Shown here in pieces: positions 22,900 through 29,858 of a DNA stretch of 42,520 nt (position 1 is the stretch's first letter; every line of letters starts with the position of its first letter). The position numbers and the translations under genes are program-made. Source of the stretch: Frankia nepalensis (GTDB taxonomy: Bacteria; Actinomycetota; Actinomycetes; Frankiales; Frankiaceae). The notes below the pieces were generated by a model. The model saw nothing but the letters and a program-made list of their open reading frames with translations, had not been told where the DNA came from and searched no databases. Where the stretch lies: NCBI RefSeq assembly GCF_016786325.1, contig NZ_JADWYU010000152.1, forward strand, positions 1 through 42,520. Direction: 5' to 3'.

Positions 22900-24831
22900 T
22901 CATGGCGTCTCGAGGAGGGCGGTAGGGATGTCCACGAAGCGGGAGCGTACGTACTCACCGAGGCCCTTGGCCTGCGGGTCGAGACGGGCGCTGGCGGCGA
23001 CGCCCGCGCCGAGCAGGCCGACGACGACGAAGTTCAGCGCGCGCAGGTTCGCGAGTTCATGGCGGCGCACCGGCAGGCCGCGCGCCTCGGGGAGCAGCTC
23101 GACGAACTTCTCGGTGGTGAGGGTGGCCGCGAGCCAGCGGTAGGCGGGGTCGGTCCGCGCCCACAGCCCGACGTTGGCGTTGCCGCCCTTGTCGCCCGAG
23201 CGGGCGCCGATCAGCCGGCCGAGCGGGACCCGCACGGTCTCGTCAGCCGCTGCCTCCTCGGCCGCCGCCTCCACCGCCGCCGCCTCAACCGCGGTCCCCT
23301 CGGCCGGCGCCGCGCCCGCCCGCCCAGGCATGTCACCCTCAGCGCCGCCATCGGTGCCACCGCCAGCGTCGACGCCGTCGATGCCGCCGCCACCGGTGCC
23401 GTCGACGCCGCCGGAAACGGCGGGATCCGCGGCTGACGGGCTGTGCGGGACGACCAGCGACGCGCCGTCGTCGAGCACGACGCGGTGCTCGACGGCGTCG
23501 CGGGCGACCAGCGTCGGCCAGTAGACGCCGTAGGAGCTCGCGCCGCCGGGCGGGGTGGTGGTGTGGAAGCCGGCGTAGCCGCCGAGGAAGAGGCTGCCCG
23601 CCGCGTCGGAGAACCGCCGGCCGACCTTCGCCGGGTCGCGGTCGCGCACCGTGACCCGCAGGTGCGCGGTCGCGAGCGCGTTCGTCTCGGCGTCGGGGCG
23701 GTCGAAACGCAGCAGCTGGACGTCCACCGCGTCGAACGAGCCCTCGCCGCCGAGCAGGTCGAACAGCTCCGCCCGGGCCCAGGCGGCCTTCTCCTCGATG
23801 TCGAGGCCGGTGAGGACCATGGTCACCGTGTTGCGGTAGCCGCCGAGGTAGTTCATCGCGACCTTGAGCGTGTCCGGTGGCGGGGTGCCACGCGTGCCGG
23901 ACAGCCGCACCCGGTCCTGGCCCCACTGGGTGACCCGGCAGGTGTCGAAGTGGGCGACGACGTCCGGGCCCGCGTAGGCGGGCGCGGCGATCTCGTAGAG
24001 CAGCTGGGCGGTCACCGTGCCGACGGTGACGGCGCCACCGGTGCCCGGATGCTTGGTGATGACGCTGCTTCCGTCGGCGGCGACCTCGGCGACCGGGAAG
24101 CCGGGGTAGCGGCGGTCGGCCACCTCGTCGAGGAACGGGTAGTTGCCGCCGCAGGCCTGCGGGCCGCACTCGATGACGTGGCCGGCGGCGACGGCGCCGG
24201 CGAGCCGGTCCCAGTCGGTGCGTTCCCAGCCGTGCCACCAGGCCGCCGGGCCGACGACCAGGGAGGCGTCGGTGACCCGCGGGGTGATGACGACGTCGGC
24301 GCCCGCCGTCAGCGCCGCCGCGATGCCCCAGCCGCCGAGGTACGCGTTCGCGGTCACCGGCTCGACGCCGGCATCGGCGAGGCCGCGGCCGGTGTCGAGG
24401 TGGGCGAACGGCTCGCCGCCGGCCCGCAGGGCACCGATCCGGTCGGCCAGGTCGTCGCCCGTCACGTAGGCGACGCTGGCGCGCAGGCCGAGCCCGGCGG
24501 CGACCTCACGGACCTTCTCGGCCAGGCCGGCGGGGTCGAGCCCCCCGGCGTTGGAGACGATCCTGATGCCGCGTTCCAGGCAGGTGCCGAGCACGTCCTC
24601 GACCTGGCTGAGGAAGGTCCGGGCGTAGCCCACGCCGCCGGGCCGGCCACGGGTCTTCCACAGGATCAGCATCGTCAGCTCGGCGAGGTAGTCGCCGGTC
24701 AGCACGTCGATCGGACCGCCGTCGACCATGAGCCGGGCGGCGTCGATCCGGTCGCCGAAGAAGCCGGAGCAGTTCGCGATCCGCGCCGGCCGCCGCACGC
24801 CGGCCGCCGACGCGGGCACGGGCGTCGTCAT
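22900..24831 (-). CDS. AtuA-like acyclic terpene utilisation family protein (DUF1446)
   Basis: A 643-residue protein. Residues from about 15 to 465 match the AtuA/DUF1446 domain (IANCSGFFGDR, GDYLAELTMLIL, GYARTFLSQ, SNAGGLDP, GGWGIAAALTAGADVVITPRVTDASL, ECGPQACGGNYPF). A Gly/Ala/Glu-rich low-complexity linker of about 70 residues follows. The C-terminal domain (VPLGRLIGARSGDKGGNANVGLW) is the AtuA C-terminal ferredoxin-like fold. AtuA proteins are needed for citronellol/geraniol catabolism in Pseudomonas, with an unclear reaction. The ATG overlaps the stop of the TIGR03084 gene (ATGA). The position beside a biotin-dependent carboxylase supports a branched acyl-CoA pathway. The linker contains unusual GGGGIDGVDAGG-type runs. 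Confidence 0.9.
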   Translation of the reverse strand: MTTPVPASAAGVRRPARIANCSGFFGDRIDAARLMVDGGPIDVLTGDYLAELTMLILWKTRGRPGGVGYARTFLSQVEDVLGTCLERGIRIVSNAGGLDPAGLAEKVREVAAGLGLRASVAYVTGDDLADRIGALRAGGEPFAHLDTGRGLADAGVEPVTANAYLGGWGIAAALTAGADVVITPRVTDASLVVGPAAWWHGWERTDWDRLAGAVAAGHVIECGPQACGGNYPFLDEVADRRYPGFPVAEVAADGSSVITKHPGTGGAVTVGTVTAQLLYEIAAPAYAGPDVVAHFDTCRVTQWGQDRVRLSGTRGTPPPDTLKVAMNYLGGYRNTVTMVLTGLDIEEKAAWARAELFDLLGGEGSFDAVDVQLLRFDRPDAETNALATAHLRVTVRDRDPAKVGRRFSDAAGSLFLGGYAGFHTTTPPGGASSYGVYWPTLVARDAVEHRVVLDDGASLVVPHSPSAADPAVSGGVDGTGGGGIDGVDAGGGTDGGAEGDMPGRAGAAPAEGTAVEAAAVEAAAEEAAADETVRVPLGRLIGARSGDKGGNANVGLWARTDPAYRWLAATLTTEKFVELLPEARGLPVRRHELANLRALNFVVVGLLGAGVAASARLDPQAKGLGEYVRSRFVDIPTALLETP

Positions 24832-25625
24832 GGGCGCTGCCCGCCCGGCGCGCGGCCGGGGGCGGGCGGGCCGGCGAAGACCTGGGCGACCTCCAGGAAG
24901 GCCAGCGCGTCGTCACCGGTCGCGGTGAGCGCCAGGTCGCGGTGGTGACGGCGCTGGGTGACCAGCAGGCAGAAGTCGAGCGCGGGCCCGCGCACGACGT
25001 TCGCCGCCCCCGGCGGTCCCCAGACCCAGGTGTCACCGGCCGGGGCGGTGAGTTCGACCCGCGGCGGCGCGGCCGGCGCCGGGCGGCCGTGGACGCTGAA
25101 GCCCCAGGGGATCGTGGCGACTCCCAGGTGCGCGACATGCCGCAGCCGCGCCGAGGGCGTCCGCGGCACGCCGAGGGCGTCGGCGACGTCCTGGCCGTGC
25201 GCCCAGGTCTCCATCAGCCGGGCGGTCAGCGACGTGGCGGCGCTCATCGGCCGGCTGAACCAGGGCAGCTTCGCCGCGGCCGGCACCGCGCCGAGTGTGG
25301 TCAGCAGATGTGCGCGGGCCCGCTCGAACCAGCCGAGCACGTCCGCGCCCGTCCGGTCGCGAAACCGCGCCGCCACGACGTCGGGGAAGTCCTCACCAAG
25401 CGCGACCAGCGCCTTCCTCTCGGCCTCGAACGCCGCCGCGTCGGTGGCGGCGAGTGTGGCGACCTCGTCGAAGAAGGCCAGGTGGGCGACCTGGTCGAGG
25501 ACGTCCCAGCCGACGGCCGGAGTCGGGACACGCCAGTCCGCCTCGTCGAGGCCGGCCACCAGCGCGGTCAGGTCCGCCGACTCGTCGGCCAGGTCGGCGA
25601 CGAGGGTCGCGACGTCGACCGCCAT
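24828..25625 (-). CDS. TIGR03084-family DinB-like metal-binding protein
   Basis: A 265-residue protein resembling the TIGR03084 group in the DinB/maleylpyruvate-isomerase-like four-helix superfamily. The putative metal histidines lie in GWDVLDQVAHLAFFDE and in METWAHGQDVADALG. A C-terminal beta-rich part (WVWGPPGAANVVRGPALDFCLLVTQRRH) follows. It overlaps the biotin-carboxylase stop by one base (TGATG) and the AtuA start by four bases, so translation is coupled. Homologues recur in actinobacterial carboxylase/AtuA clusters but remain uncharacterised; the reaction is probably mycothiol- or CoA-linked, which is speculation. The start is fixed by the overlap. Confidence 0.85.
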   Translation of the reverse strand: MAVDVATLVADLADESADLTALVAGLDEADWRVPTPAVGWDVLDQVAHLAFFDEVATLAATDAAAFEAERKALVALGEDFPDVVAARFRDRTGADVLGWFERARAHLLTTLGAVPAAAKLPWFSRPMSAATSLTARLMETWAHGQDVADALGVPRTPSARLRHVAHLGVATIPWGFSVHGRPAPAAPPRVELTAPAGDTWVWGPPGAANVVRGPALDFCLLVTQRRHHRDLALTATGDDALAFLEVAQVFAGPPAPGRAPGGQRP

Positions 25626-27775
25626 CAGGCCACCTCCTCGGCCGCGTCAGCCGCCGCGGCCGGCGTCGTCGCAGCGGCCGGCATCGCGGCCATGCCGGAC
25701 GTCGCGGCCGCGGCCGCGGCGACCGGGGTGAGGACGGCGAGCACCTTGCCCGCGTCGACGATGTCGCCCTGGCCGAAGCGCAGCTCGGTGACGACGCCGT
25801 CGTACGGCGCGGTGATCGTGTGTTCCATCTTCATCGCCTCCAGGACCGCGACGATCGCCCCGCTGGCGACGGTGTCGCCGACGGCGGCGAGCCGGACGAC
25901 CGTGCCGGGCATCGGCGCGACGAGCGAACCGGGCGGCGTGACGGCGCCCGGTTCGACGAACCGGGGCACCTCGCGCGCCGCCGTCGACCCGCCGCGGCCG
26001 TCCAGGTAGACCAGGTCGCCGCGACGGCCGCCGGCCGGTCCGCCGACCCGGGTGACCGTCACCCGGGCACGCACGCCGTCGACGGTGAGGTCGGCGAGAC
26101 CCGCGTCGGCGTGGTGGACCTCGACGTCGAGCGCCCGACCGGCGACCGTCGCCTCGACCCGCCGGCCGCCCGCGCGGGCGGTGACCCGGTGGCGGTAGGT
26201 GACCTCGACGGTGCCGCCGGCGGCCTCGAACTCGACCCGTTGCGGGGCGGAGGGCACGTTGCGCCAGCCGGGCGGGACGCCGGGCAGGGGCGCGCCAGCG
26301 CGGCGGTCGGCGGCCCCGGCGAGCGCGGCCGCGACGAGGTGGGTGGCCAGCACCTCCTCATCCGGCGCGGCCCCGGCGAGCGCGGGCCCGCCTCTGGCCC
26401 CGGGCGGGCCGGCGGAGCCGAGGGCGGCCGGGTCGTGCCGGTCCAGGTAGCCGGTGTCGATGTCGCCGGCGCGGAACTCCGGTTCGCGCAGGATCGCGAC
26501 CAGCAGGGACCGGTTCGTCGTCACCCCGTGCACCCGGGTGCCGTCGAGCGCCTTCGCCAGCCGGCGGACCGCCTGCTCGCGGCTCGCGCCGTGGGCGATC
26601 ACCTTGGCGAGCATCGGGTCGTAGTGCACGCCGACGACCGACCCGTCGGCGACGCCGCTGTCGACCCTGATCCCGGGCAGGGCCGGGACCTCGAACCGGT
26701 GCACGGTGCCGGTCGACGGCCCGAACCCGGCCGCGACGTCCTCGGCGTACAGCCGGGCCTCGATGGCGTGCCCGGTGATCCGCGCGGTCAGGAGCTCGGG
26801 CGGCAGCGGCGCGCCCTCCGCGACGAGCAGCTGGGTCCGCACCAGGTCGAGCCCGGTGATCTCCTCGGTGACCGGGTGCTCCACCTGCAGCCGGGTGTTG
26901 ACCTCCAGGAAGAAGAACCGGCCCGAGCGGTCGAGGACGAACTCGACGGTGCCGGCGCCGACGTAGCCGATCGCCGTCGCCGCGGCGACGGCGGCCGAGC
27001 CGAGGCGCCCGCGCAGCTCGTCGTCGACGGCGACGGACGGCGCCTCCTCGATGATCTTCTGGTAGCGCCGCTGGATCGAGCACTCCCGCTCGAACAGGTG
27101 CGTGACGTGGCCGTGGGCGTCGGCGAAGATCTGGACCTCGATGTGCCGGGGCCGCTCGACGTAGCGCTCCAGGAACACGGCGCCGTCACCGAACGCGGAC
27201 GCGGCCTCGCGCCGGGCGCCGGCGACGGCGGCGGGAAGCTCCGCCGGGGCGCGCACGATCCGCATGCCCCGCCCGCCGCCGCCGTGGACGGCCTTGACCA
27301 GCAGCGGGAACTCGAGCGACGCGGCCGCCCTGGCGAGCGCCGTCTCGTCGGCGGCCAGCTCCTCGTCGACGACCAGTCCCGGCAGCACCGGGACGCCGGC
27401 GGCGGCCATCAGTTCCTTGGCGCGGGTCTTCGAGCCCATCGCCTCGATCACGGCCGGCGGTGGTCCGACGAAGACGAGCCCGGCGTCGGCGCAGGCGCGG
27501 GCGAATCCCGCGTTCTCGGAGAGAAACCCATAGCCAGGGTGGATCGCGTCGGCTCCAGTACGCAGGGCGGCGGCGATGACGAGGTCGCCGCGCAGGTAGG
27601 TCTCGGCCGGGCTCGCGCCGGGCAGCCGGACGGCCTCGTCGGCGGCCGCGACGAAGGGCGCGTCCGCGTCCGCGTCGGAGAACACCGCGACGCATCCGAT
27701 GTCCAGCTCGCGCGCCGTCCGCAGCACCCGGGCGGCGATCTCGCCCCGGTTGGCGACCAACAACTTGGTAATCAC
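25625..27775 (-). CDS. Acyl-CoA carboxylase alpha subunit (biotin carboxylase plus biotin carrier)
   Basis: A 716-residue biotin-dependent carboxylase subunit. The biotin-carboxylase N-domain begins ITKLLVANRGEIAARVLRTA; the ATP-grasp domain follows (GGGGRGMRIV; ECSIQRRYQKIIEEAPS; EVNTRLQVEHPVTE). A BT linker domain is next, then the biotinyl domain with EAMKMEH, where Lys649 would carry biotin. About 35 Ala-rich residues extend beyond the biotinyl domain. GTG at 27775 is chosen because the conserved N-terminus starts there; an in-frame GTG at 27841 adds 22 residues. There is no good ribosome site at 27775. Its partner beta subunit is immediately upstream across a tandem repeat. Likely substrate: geranyl-, methylcrotonyl- or propionyl-type acyl-CoA. 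Confidence 0.92.
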   Translation of the reverse strand: MITKLLVANRGEIAARVLRTARELDIGCVAVFSDADADAPFVAAADEAVRLPGASPAETYLRGDLVIAAALRTGADAIHPGYGFLSENAGFARACADAGLVFVGPPPAVIEAMGSKTRAKELMAAAGVPVLPGLVVDEELAADETALARAAASLEFPLLVKAVHGGGGRGMRIVRAPAELPAAVAGARREAASAFGDGAVFLERYVERPRHIEVQIFADAHGHVTHLFERECSIQRRYQKIIEEAPSVAVDDELRGRLGSAAVAAATAIGYVGAGTVEFVLDRSGRFFFLEVNTRLQVEHPVTEEITGLDLVRTQLLVAEGAPLPPELLTARITGHAIEARLYAEDVAAGFGPSTGTVHRFEVPALPGIRVDSGVADGSVVGVHYDPMLAKVIAHGASREQAVRRLAKALDGTRVHGVTTNRSLLVAILREPEFRAGDIDTGYLDRHDPAALGSAGPPGARGGPALAGAAPDEEVLATHLVAAALAGAADRRAGAPLPGVPPGWRNVPSAPQRVEFEAAGGTVEVTYRHRVTARAGGRRVEATVAGRALDVEVHHADAGLADLTVDGVRARVTVTRVGGPAGGRRGDLVYLDGRGGSTAAREVPRFVEPGAVTPPGSLVAPMPGTVVRLAAVGDTVASGAIVAVLEAMKMEHTITAPYDGVVTELRFGQGDIVDAGKVLAVLTPVAAAAAATSGMAAMPAAATTPAAAADAAEEVA

Positions 27776-28134
27776 GGAGGCGTCACATCGTTTCTTTGTT
27801 CGTCTCGTCGCTTCACTCGATTCCTCCGGGAGCGGCACCACGAAGACCGCCTACCCGAAACCGCCAGCAACCCAACCCAGCACGACCCATACCTGCCAAC
27901 CGAACCGAAACCACAAAGACCGCCTACCCAAGGCCGGCAGGCAACCCGACCCCAGCACGACCGCCACCTATCGGCCGAACTGAAGCCCACACAAAGACCG
28001 CCTTTCCAAGGCCAGCAGGCAACCCGACCCCAACGCAACCGATACCTATCGACCGAACTGAAGCCCAGCGGAAGGAGGCAGTAGAAAGCAACCACCCAGC
28101 CAACTGGAACGGAGCAGCGAAAAGCAACCACAAG
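27776..28134 (-). other. 359-base spacer between carboxylase genes holding the tandem repeat
   Basis: This spacer breaks an otherwise tightly overlapped operon. It reads open on the minus strand from a GTG at 28131 to a TGA at 27774-27772, which overlaps the alpha-subunit GTG as GTGA, giving a possible 119-residue product. The frame consists mainly of 26-residue repeats, and its third codon positions are clearly less G/C-rich than in neighbouring genes. No ribosome site is seen at 28131. A non-coding repeat insertion is favoured over a real gene. Confidence 0.5.
27843..28071. repeat. Three tandem copies of a 73-78-base unit
   Basis: Units at 27843-27915 (73 bases), 27916-27993 (78) and 27994-28071 (78) all begin AAGACCGCCT. 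They share internal blocks CAACCCGACCCCA and GACCGAACTGAAGCCCA or close variants. Copies 2 and 3 are most alike, and copy 1 is shortened and diverged. The unit is less GC-rich than the surrounding genes. It lies wholly between two co-directional operon genes. Confidence 0.93.
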
Positions 28135-29766
28135 CTACATTCGGAAGACGCCGTAGCCACGGCGTCCCTCGATCGGGGCTGAATGCGCGGCCGAAAGCGC
28201 GAGGCCGAGCACGGTGCGGGTGTCACGGGGGTCGAGCACGCCGTCGTCGTAGAGCTTTCCGCTGATGAAGAAGGCATGTGACTCGGCGGCGATCTGGCGC
28301 TCGATCGCCTCCCGGCGCGCGTCGTCGGCCGCCTGGTCGAACGGCCGGCCGGACTCGGCCGCCGCGGCCCGCCCCACGATGGACAGCACGCCGGCCAGCT
28401 GGGCGGCGCCCATCACGGCGAGCCTGGCGTTCGCCCAGGCGAACATGAACCGCGGGTCGTAGGCCCGCCCGGACATGCCGTAGTTCCCGGCGCCGAACGA
28501 GGCCGCCATGTTGATGGTCAGGTGCGGCACCGTGCTGTTCGCGACAGCATTGATCATCTTGGCGCCGTCCTTGATGATGCCGCCCTGCTCGTAGGCGGCG
28601 CCCACCATGAAGCCGGTGGTGTTCTGCAGGAAGATCAGCGGGGTGTCCACCTGGTTGGCCAGCTGGATGAACTCGGCGCCCTTCTTCGCTTCCTCGCCGA
28701 ACAGGATCCCGTTCGCGTTCGCGAGGACACCGACCGGGAAGCCGTGGACCGACGCCCAGCCGGTCACCAGGCTCGTGCCGTACTCCGGCTTGTACTCGCC
28801 GAACCGGGAGCCGTCGACCACCCGAGCGAGCACCTCGCGCGGGTCGAACGGCATCCGGAAGTCCGCCGGGGCGATCCCGAGCAGCTCGTCCGGGTCGTGG
28901 AGCGGCTCGTCGGCGGGCAGCGTCGGCCCTGGGCCGCGCTTGCGCCAGTTCAGCTCGGAGACGATCCGCCGGCCGATCCGGATCGCGTCCAGCTCGTCGA
29001 CGGCGAAATGGTCCGCGAGGCCGGAGACCCGGGCGTGCATCGCGGCGCCGCCGAGGTCCTCGTCGTCGGACTCCTCGCCGGTCGCCATCTTCACCAGCGG
29101 CGGCCCGCCGAGGAACACCTTCGCCTGCCGGTCGACCAGCACCGCGTAGTCGCACATGCCGGGTACGTAGGCGCCGCCGGCCGTCGAGTTGCCGAAGACG
29201 AGCGCGACCGTCGGGATCCCCATCGACGACAGCTCGGTCAGGTCGTGGAAGATCTTGCCGGCCTGGACGAACAGCTCCGACTGGCTCGGCAGGTCGGCGC
29301 CGCCGGACTCGACCAGGTTCACCACCGGCAGCCGGTTGCGCCTCGCGACCTCGAGCGCCCGCAGCGTCCTGCGCAGCGAGAACGGGTTCATCGCGCCGCC
29401 GCGCACCGTCGGGTCGTGCGCGATGACCACCACCTCGACGCCGGCCACCACGCCGATCCCGGTGACGACGCTCGCGCCGACCGCGAACTCGCTGCCCCAG
29501 CCGGCCAGCGCCGACAGCTCGAGGAACGGCGAGTCCCGGTCGACGAGCAGCTCGATCCGTTCACGGGCGAGCAGCCGGCCACGCCTGTGGTGACGTTCCC
29601 GGTAGCGAGCCCCACCGCCGTCGCGGGCCTTGTCCAGCTCCGCCTCGAGCTCGGCGAGCACCGCGAGCTGGGCGGCGCGGTTCGCCCGGTACCGCTCGGC
29701 GCCCGTGTCGAGCCGGGACCGCAGCACGGTCCCCTCGGCCGCCCGCCAGCTCTTCCCAGCCTCCAC
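28135..29766 (-). CDS. Acyl-CoA carboxylase beta subunit (carboxyltransferase)
   Basis: A 543-residue crotonase-fold carboxyltransferase of the methylcrotonyl/geranyl/propionyl-CoA carboxylase type. Recognisable features are RERIELLVD, the N-domain oxyanion region with ESGGADLPSQSELF, FGNSTAGGAYVPGMCDY, FLGGPPLVKMATGE and the C-domain FLQNTTGFMVG, AYEQGGIIKDGAKM, ASFGAGNYGMSGRAYDPRFMF. The AYDPRF and GGA motifs favour an MCC/GCC-like rather than a strictly propionyl-CoA type subunit. The GTG at 29766 has AGGAGG four bases upstream. This is the first gene of the operon, and two palindromes lie just upstream. Together with the alpha subunit it would carboxylate an enoyl- or acyl-CoA using bicarbonate and ATP. 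Confidence 0.92.
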   Translation of the reverse strand: MEAGKSWRAAEGTVLRSRLDTGAERYRANRAAQLAVLAELEAELDKARDGGGARYRERHHRRGRLLARERIELLVDRDSPFLELSALAGWGSEFAVGASVVTGIGVVAGVEVVVIAHDPTVRGGAMNPFSLRRTLRALEVARRNRLPVVNLVESGGADLPSQSELFVQAGKIFHDLTELSSMGIPTVALVFGNSTAGGAYVPGMCDYAVLVDRQAKVFLGGPPLVKMATGEESDDEDLGGAAMHARVSGLADHFAVDELDAIRIGRRIVSELNWRKRGPGPTLPADEPLHDPDELLGIAPADFRMPFDPREVLARVVDGSRFGEYKPEYGTSLVTGWASVHGFPVGVLANANGILFGEEAKKGAEFIQLANQVDTPLIFLQNTTGFMVGAAYEQGGIIKDGAKMINAVANSTVPHLTINMAASFGAGNYGMSGRAYDPRFMFAWANARLAVMGAAQLAGVLSIVGRAAAAESGRPFDQAADDARREAIERQIAAESHAFFISGKLYDDGVLDPRDTRTVLGLALSAAHSAPIEGRRGYGVFRM

Positions 29767-29774
29767 CCAACCTC

Positions 29775-29796
29775 CTAGTGATTTAACGTTAACTAG
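29775..29796. promoter_or_regulatory. Palindromic site with TTAACGTTAA core upstream of the carboxylase operon
   Basis: A perfect ten-base palindrome, TTAACGTTAA (29783-29792), is flanked by CTAG at 29775-29778 and ACTAG at 29792-29796. It sits immediately upstream of the beta-subunit ribosome site, so a bound repressor would block expression. It is a candidate target of the TetR regulator at the end of the operon. Confidence 0.6.
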
Positions 29797-29858
29797 CACC
29801 GCTCAAAGATCGAGCAAGCACGCGGTCTTCGAGCGGTCCAGCCGCCCATGACGGGGCC

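Follow-up and report, generated by a model that had tools for sequence, protein, structure and literature searches.

A small dispersed repeat, partly duplicated in tandem, inserted between two carboxylase genes of Frankia nepalensis

The closest described systems to the repeat presented here are the MIRUs, which the available part of one account gives as 40–100-bp units scattered in the chromosome, with 41 locations in strain H37Rv (PMC2734929), and for which an excerpt of a review describes a frame within the unit, coupled with −4 spacing where the unit has inserted (PMC12548453); further features are outlined in the accessible section of PMC4128351. As in the first of these excerpts, the element at our locus is a short intergenic repeat scattered on an actinobacterial chromosome and arranged in tandem at some sites (PMC2734929), and between hemD and hemB it holds a frame coupled by −4 overlaps at the insertion site, as in the review excerpt (PMC12548453). 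It differs in coming from another genus, in the greater length of its full unit (about 120–145 nt), in occurring in both orientations, and in that most of its sites are not stop/start overlaps; the comparison is one of descriptions rather than of sequences, and our profile searches stayed within 35 family genomes.

Two other repeat classes bear a partial likeness. The element resembles a MITE in being small, free of coding signal, dispersed, and present or absent between species, but it has no inverted repeat of 12 nt or more (0 pairs in 27500–28400), only a 5-pair inverted match (GCC-NC/GN-GGC) inside the element, and no clear target duplication. With REP/REPIN sequences it shares the character of a small extragenic dispersed repeat; that class is defined by a short palindrome and high copy number, whereas here there is no compact palindrome and the sites are few (at least 10 copies at at least 5 sites in 10.7 Mb). 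A plasmid or phage origin was set aside, as neither collection gave a match to the element at E 0.01. The titles and abstract openings covered on repeats in Frankia, Pseudofrankia and other actinobacteria do not describe the element, and the portions available of PMC2770080 and PMC4447401 concern insertion sequences and general repeat counts.

The window, meaning the whole 42,520-nt stretch that was analysed, carries the two carboxylase genes on its minus strand, where the TAG stop of the carboxyltransferase gene (28137–28135) is separated from the GTG start of the biotin carboxylase gene (27775) by a spacer that holds a GT-rich repeat in three copies, one full and two partial. We read this spacer as an inserted small interspersed repeat without coding signal, found at a few sites in four Pseudofrankia genomes and later part-duplicated in tandem, which probably spread as passive or selfish DNA and would have drifted roughly neutrally once in place (probability about 0.72). 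Tandem Repeats Finder reports a period of 78, 2.0 copies, 88% matches and a score of 249, the top of 16 rows in the window, and a repeat search added the third, diverged copy, with start-to-start spacings of 73–78, along with a 34-nt repeat pair at the upstream end of the spacer. The sequence-only reading of this DNA had noticed a 73–78-base tandem repeat and a 359-base split of the two subunit genes by three repeats, and both observations hold; what it called alpha and beta subunits are, by their Pfam domains, a biotin carboxylase/BCCP gene downstream and a carboxyltransferase gene upstream. The tight coupling that it described at other junctions is likewise present, the following two overlapping by 1 nt (25625) and 4 nt (24828–24831). 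Coordinates are collected in Table 1.

Table 1. Features of the carboxylase spacer and its flanks, in window coordinates.
Feature	Coordinates	Strand	Basis
Inserted spacer between carboxyltransferase and biotin carboxylase genes	27776..28134	−	359 nt, against 5–68 nt in 14 of 14 family orthologues
Dispersed GT-rich element, full-length copy (copy 1)	27990..28132	−	R2 profile E 2e-22; R1 match 27996–28109
Copy 2, without the upstream part of the element	27912..27989	−	88% identity to copy 1 over 78 nt; R2 match 27915–27989, E 3e-9
Copy 3, more diverged, with frame-shifting indels	27845..27911	−	R1 match E 0.049; not in R2 matches at E 0.01
Two 34-nt direct repeats, spacing 36 nt, upstream end of copy 1	28062..28131	−	74% identity
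119-codon open frame; TGA overlaps biotin carboxylase GTG (GTGA)	27772..28131	−	No coding signal
GGAGG (27827–27823), 6 nt, GTG (27816): 14-codon frame ending in the GTGA overlap	27772..27827	−	Read from sequence
Carboxyltransferase subunit gene, upstream flank	28135..29799	−	Pfam PF01039
Biotin carboxylase/BCCP subunit gene, downstream flank	25625..27775	−	Pfam PF00289, PF02786, PF02785, PF00364

That the spacer is an insertion follows from the orthologous operons. Searching 35 family genomes with the carboxyltransferase gave 14 orthologous loci besides the window (L016–L029, carboxyltransferase identity 67–89%), and the comparison with operons lacking the repeat, which the earlier reading had proposed, found the element missing from all 14 junctions. 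Their spacers measure 5–68 nt, those of the three same-genus loci being 13, 14 and 16 nt; for L028 this uses the by-eye spacer of 5 nt, the script value of 133 nt being due to a shortened match. Another 15 pairs (L030–L044) are more distant, at about 50–52% identity, have spacers ranging from an overlap to 475 nt, and are taken as paralogous operons.

The repeat is also dispersed. A BLAST search with the spacer hit four other places in its own genome and weak ones in relatives, and a common GT-rich element was visible on reading several of them. Two profiles, both built from sequence only (R1 from 9 copies, R2 from 16), were run over the 35 family genomes, an order-level search giving the same 35. 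In the own genome (G000, 10.7 Mb) their matches mark at least 10 copies at at least 5 sites: the window, upstream of aroA (3 copies), dnaN-recF, upstream of a DEAD-box helicase (contig C340), and downstream of folE (3 copies). Other copies lie in G004 (hpcH-aldH, hemD-hemB and dnaN-recF), G005 (hpcH-aldH and hemD-hemB) and G006 (hpcH-aldH), so that a search of the repeat unit against the genome and its relatives, suggested in the sequence-only reading, gives at least 7 distinct sites across four Pseudofrankia genomes, the own one and those of three other species (flanking genes named by Pfam). These copy numbers are lower bounds, because, out of thousands of first-look candidates in each genome, only 89 or 150 were scored with the profiles. 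Own-genome matches to R2 have E-values of 3e-9 or better, while those in genomes beyond the four reach 8e-4 or weaker; the matches in G007, G023 and G027 (E 8e-4 to 0.009) stand outside the count of copies. A first pattern scan of genome contigs, a set from which the own genome or near records may be left out, returned nothing, and a looser scan returned one stretch, in Pseudofrankia sp. BMG5.36.

Identities between copies were taken from the 16-row alignment A3, which is also the basis of R2. Tandem copies within a site are 79–98% identical and copies at different sites 44–68%, and this higher likeness within than between sites suggests that the tandem copies (unit 73–78 nt in the window) probably arose in place after each insertion. 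Left out of A3 are copy 3 of the window, the second, partial copies in L048 and L014, and the R1 matches L049, L050, L054, L055, L059, L060, L063 and L064, which are weak and taken as chance. At the folE site (L067, G000:C365, about 1490–1875), copies 2 and 3 are each preceded by a duplicate of the last folE codons and stop, which indicates that host sequence was included in the tandem duplication.

Filled and unfilled versions of the same junctions could be compared by searching six flanking proteins in 8 genus genomes and reading the junctions. Every site lacks the element in some species. At dnaN-recF, G000 and G004 carry the element and the remaining six genomes have a short junction; hpcH-aldH is filled in G004, G005 and G006, without the element in G000, G001 and G003, and without a gene match in G002 and G007; the aroA and folE sites are filled in G000 only. 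At the helicase site the element is present in G000 and absent from G002, whose helicase is 97% identical. In a four-gene tree G004–G006 form one clade, G000 groups with G007 (support 0.985), and G001–G003 make a third group. At dnaN-recF (L005, L014), G000 and G004 have the element and a short flank in common, and G005 and G006, nearer to G004, keep the plain short junction; loss and independent insertion are left as alternatives for this pattern. Both orientations relative to transcription are found, with the opposite strand being sense at aroA, recF and hpcH.

Copies at other sites, together with orthologous sites lacking the element, support the dispersal side of the mobile repeat that the sequence-only reading had offered as its first option, and the element is probably mobile. 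Against our main reading, transposition itself was not seen, the inverted repeats and clear target duplications mentioned above are missing, and at the helicase site the element replaces about 34 nt instead of cleanly interrupting the sequence. In the window, a target-site duplication is only suggestive: the right flank resembles the ancestral stop-codon region to a degree reached by 172 (G001), 1597 (G003) and 184 (G005) of 3000 shuffles, and GATGT near both ends is not significant. At hemD-hemB, the element is flanked by ATGA and GTGA.

Once in place, copies at shared sites appear close to neutral drift, judging from their divergence. Identity in the hpcH-aldH core of G004, G005 and G006 is 88.0–90.3% against 85.4–92.4% at fourfold sites of the flanking genes, and the recF gap has 60.9% (215 aligned, 78 gapped columns) against 62.2%. 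The hemD-hemB gap, at 93.2% (161 aligned, 53 gapped columns), lies slightly above its fourfold sites (88.1 and 91.6%), which counts somewhat against neutrality, as does the better conservation between sites of blocks such as TTYTACTGCCT and GGTCGGGTT-CCTG than of the remainder of the element. Such conservation is what one would predict were the blocks needed for a copy to spread, or were they sites of binding or pairing; taken with the 5-pair stem described below, the blocks could point to a function of the DNA or RNA.

The sequence-only reading had also offered an odd small repeat protein, of 119 residues, which we consider hardly credible. The minus-strand frame that it described is real, as is its GTGA overlap with the biotin carboxylase gene: the frame begins with a GTG 3 nt past the upstream stop, has a coupled stop, and has an open counterpart in the copies at hemD-hemB. 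Its codon use is as poor as had been noted, with a log-odds of −0.92 per codon against +0.54 to +0.64 in four neighbouring genes, the same four from which the codon table was derived, and its GC at codon positions 1/2/3 is 0.57/0.65/0.61 against 0.72–0.80/0.48–0.56/0.93–0.96 in those genes. All six codons that differ between copies 1 and 2 change the residue, indels shift the frame in copy 3, the hemD-hemB copies differ between species by 3 synonymous and 4 residue-changing codons, and a Pfam search of the 119-codon frame gave no match. The protein was rejected on these codon statistics and this substitution pattern. In a first-order simulation the probability of the window frame being open by chance is 0.057, and 0.157 for any of three frames. 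A special shortage of stops on one strand was likewise rejected: the two strands hold similar numbers of stop trinucleotides (28 and 30 in 2187 positions), close to the average of the window.

A third option was a translational attenuator, or more generally a regulatory RNA, that balances the two carboxylase subunits. The position between the two subunit genes would suit such a role, four terminator-like matches on both strands exceed the 1.6 expected (sd 1.5), and a GGAGG with a short frame precedes the biotin carboxylase start; that 14-codon frame is a possible re-initiation leader. Folding of the minus-strand transcript, which the earlier reading had named as a check, gave little support, since the spacer folds no better than shuffles on either strand (z −0.03 and 0.01), nor does the leader (z +0.65), and Rfam gave no match at the gathering score. 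The near-neutral divergence, the absence of the element at all 14 orthologous junctions, and its placement elsewhere beside unrelated genes in both orientations also argue against an attenuator, which we regard as quite improbable; the GTGA coupling is the part of that proposal that retains interest.

Structure common to the copies was considered as well. A 17-pair hairpin that includes one compensatory pair was predicted from an initial set of 9 copies and is missing in predictions from 22 rows and from 16 rows. Three rows of the 22-row set are probably chance matches and several are partial, and the prediction was repeated with the 16 trusted rows, which give a weak structure (−1.8 kcal/mol, 9 pairs) that includes a 5-pair stem joining the two best-kept blocks. 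In this stem 93.3% of cells are paired and the covariation score is above that of all 500 shuffles, nearly all of it coming from one column pair; doubly changed pairs are no more numerous than usual (301 of 500 shuffles reach their number), and 8 of 9 doubly changed cells fall in that one column pair. Among seven site representatives it is equalled by 30 of 6349 column pairs and it is broken in copy 1 of the window, which weighs against an attenuator at this locus. The stem covariation appears real but thin, an unexplained hint from the alignment, for which the probability given to neutrality was reduced from 0.75 to 0.72 and that given to a regulatory RNA increased by a very small step. The columns concerned (A3 65–70 and 130–135, GCC-NC and GN-GGC) each hold a variable base, and the two bases vary together from site to site (G-C, C-G, U-G) apart from copy 1 of the window; these columns are perhaps short paired ends of the element.

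The MIRU accounts suggest a further explanation, in which an element of this kind enters stop/start overlaps and its own frame restores −4 coupling at both ends, so that it is tolerated in operons. The hemD-hemB junction, with gene starts inferred from the reading frame rather than from annotation, fits best. In 5 of 8 genomes (G001, G002, G003, G006 and G007) an ATG or GTG in the hemB frame overlaps the hemD stop by 4 nt, and the filled sites keep the outer overlaps: G005 reads ATGA-element-GTGA with one 54-codon frame from the first overlap to the second, and G004 has two frames (50 and 24 codons). This arrangement matches the MIRU account in the available excerpt of the review (PMC12548453). 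The window shows the −4 overlap at its downstream end only, and at the helicase site one of two frames ends in GTGA and the other runs in frame into the gene. The aroA site has a 113-codon frame that stops 4 nt short of the gene, hpcH in G006 has one of 30 codons that stays open into aldH, and no frame reaches the downstream start at recF or in the remaining hpcH copies.

Overall, −4 overlaps at both ends occur at only 1 of 6 co-directional sites, aroA, recF and hpcH being without them, and the element-free orthologous sites at recF, hpcH, aroA and the helicase are not −4 overlaps. The opposite orientation at three sites, the near-equal stop counts and the chance of an open window frame given above also weigh against this explanation, which we hold to be tentative and rather doubtful. 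The resemblance to MIRUs, as read from the junctions, is clear at one site and partial at two, and does not amount to a general property. Bolder still, and unlikely in our view, is the proposal of a MIRU-like mobile element outside mycobacteria, independent or anciently shared, that enters stop/start overlaps and couples its neighbours via a throwaway frame, with the window and hemD-hemB as two stages.

Under the preferred reading of a lineage-restricted, largely neutral or selfish element, insertion between the carboxyltransferase and biotin carboxylase genes would have removed their close spacing, part of the element would afterwards have been duplicated in tandem, and a frame would simply happen to stay open across the spacer and end in GTGA. 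Through that open frame and overlap, ribosomes may still reach the start of the biotin carboxylase gene. The element seems closer to small parasitic or neutral DNA than to a gene or regulatory switch. With it Pseudofrankia gains a family of small interspersed repeats, and its filled and unfilled site pairs beside core genes (dnaN-recF, hemD-hemB, aroA and folE) allow tests of how small insertions are tolerated between closely coupled genes; apart from those pairs, it is ordinary genome wear.

Two minor observations concern the neighbouring junctions. At hemD-hemB, G000 has another extra stretch (L095, G000:C343) that includes the palindrome GATCGGC-TTC-GCCGATC and stays open from the GTGA overlap, in frame, into hemB; a stretch in G005 (L063) holds a similar palindrome. 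In the window, the biotin carboxylase frame runs upstream as far as a GTG at 27841 (27772–27841), and the strong GGAGG suits the GTG at 27816, in a different frame, better than the expected start at 27775; given this placement and the upstream extension, automatic annotation may put the biotin carboxylase start elsewhere.
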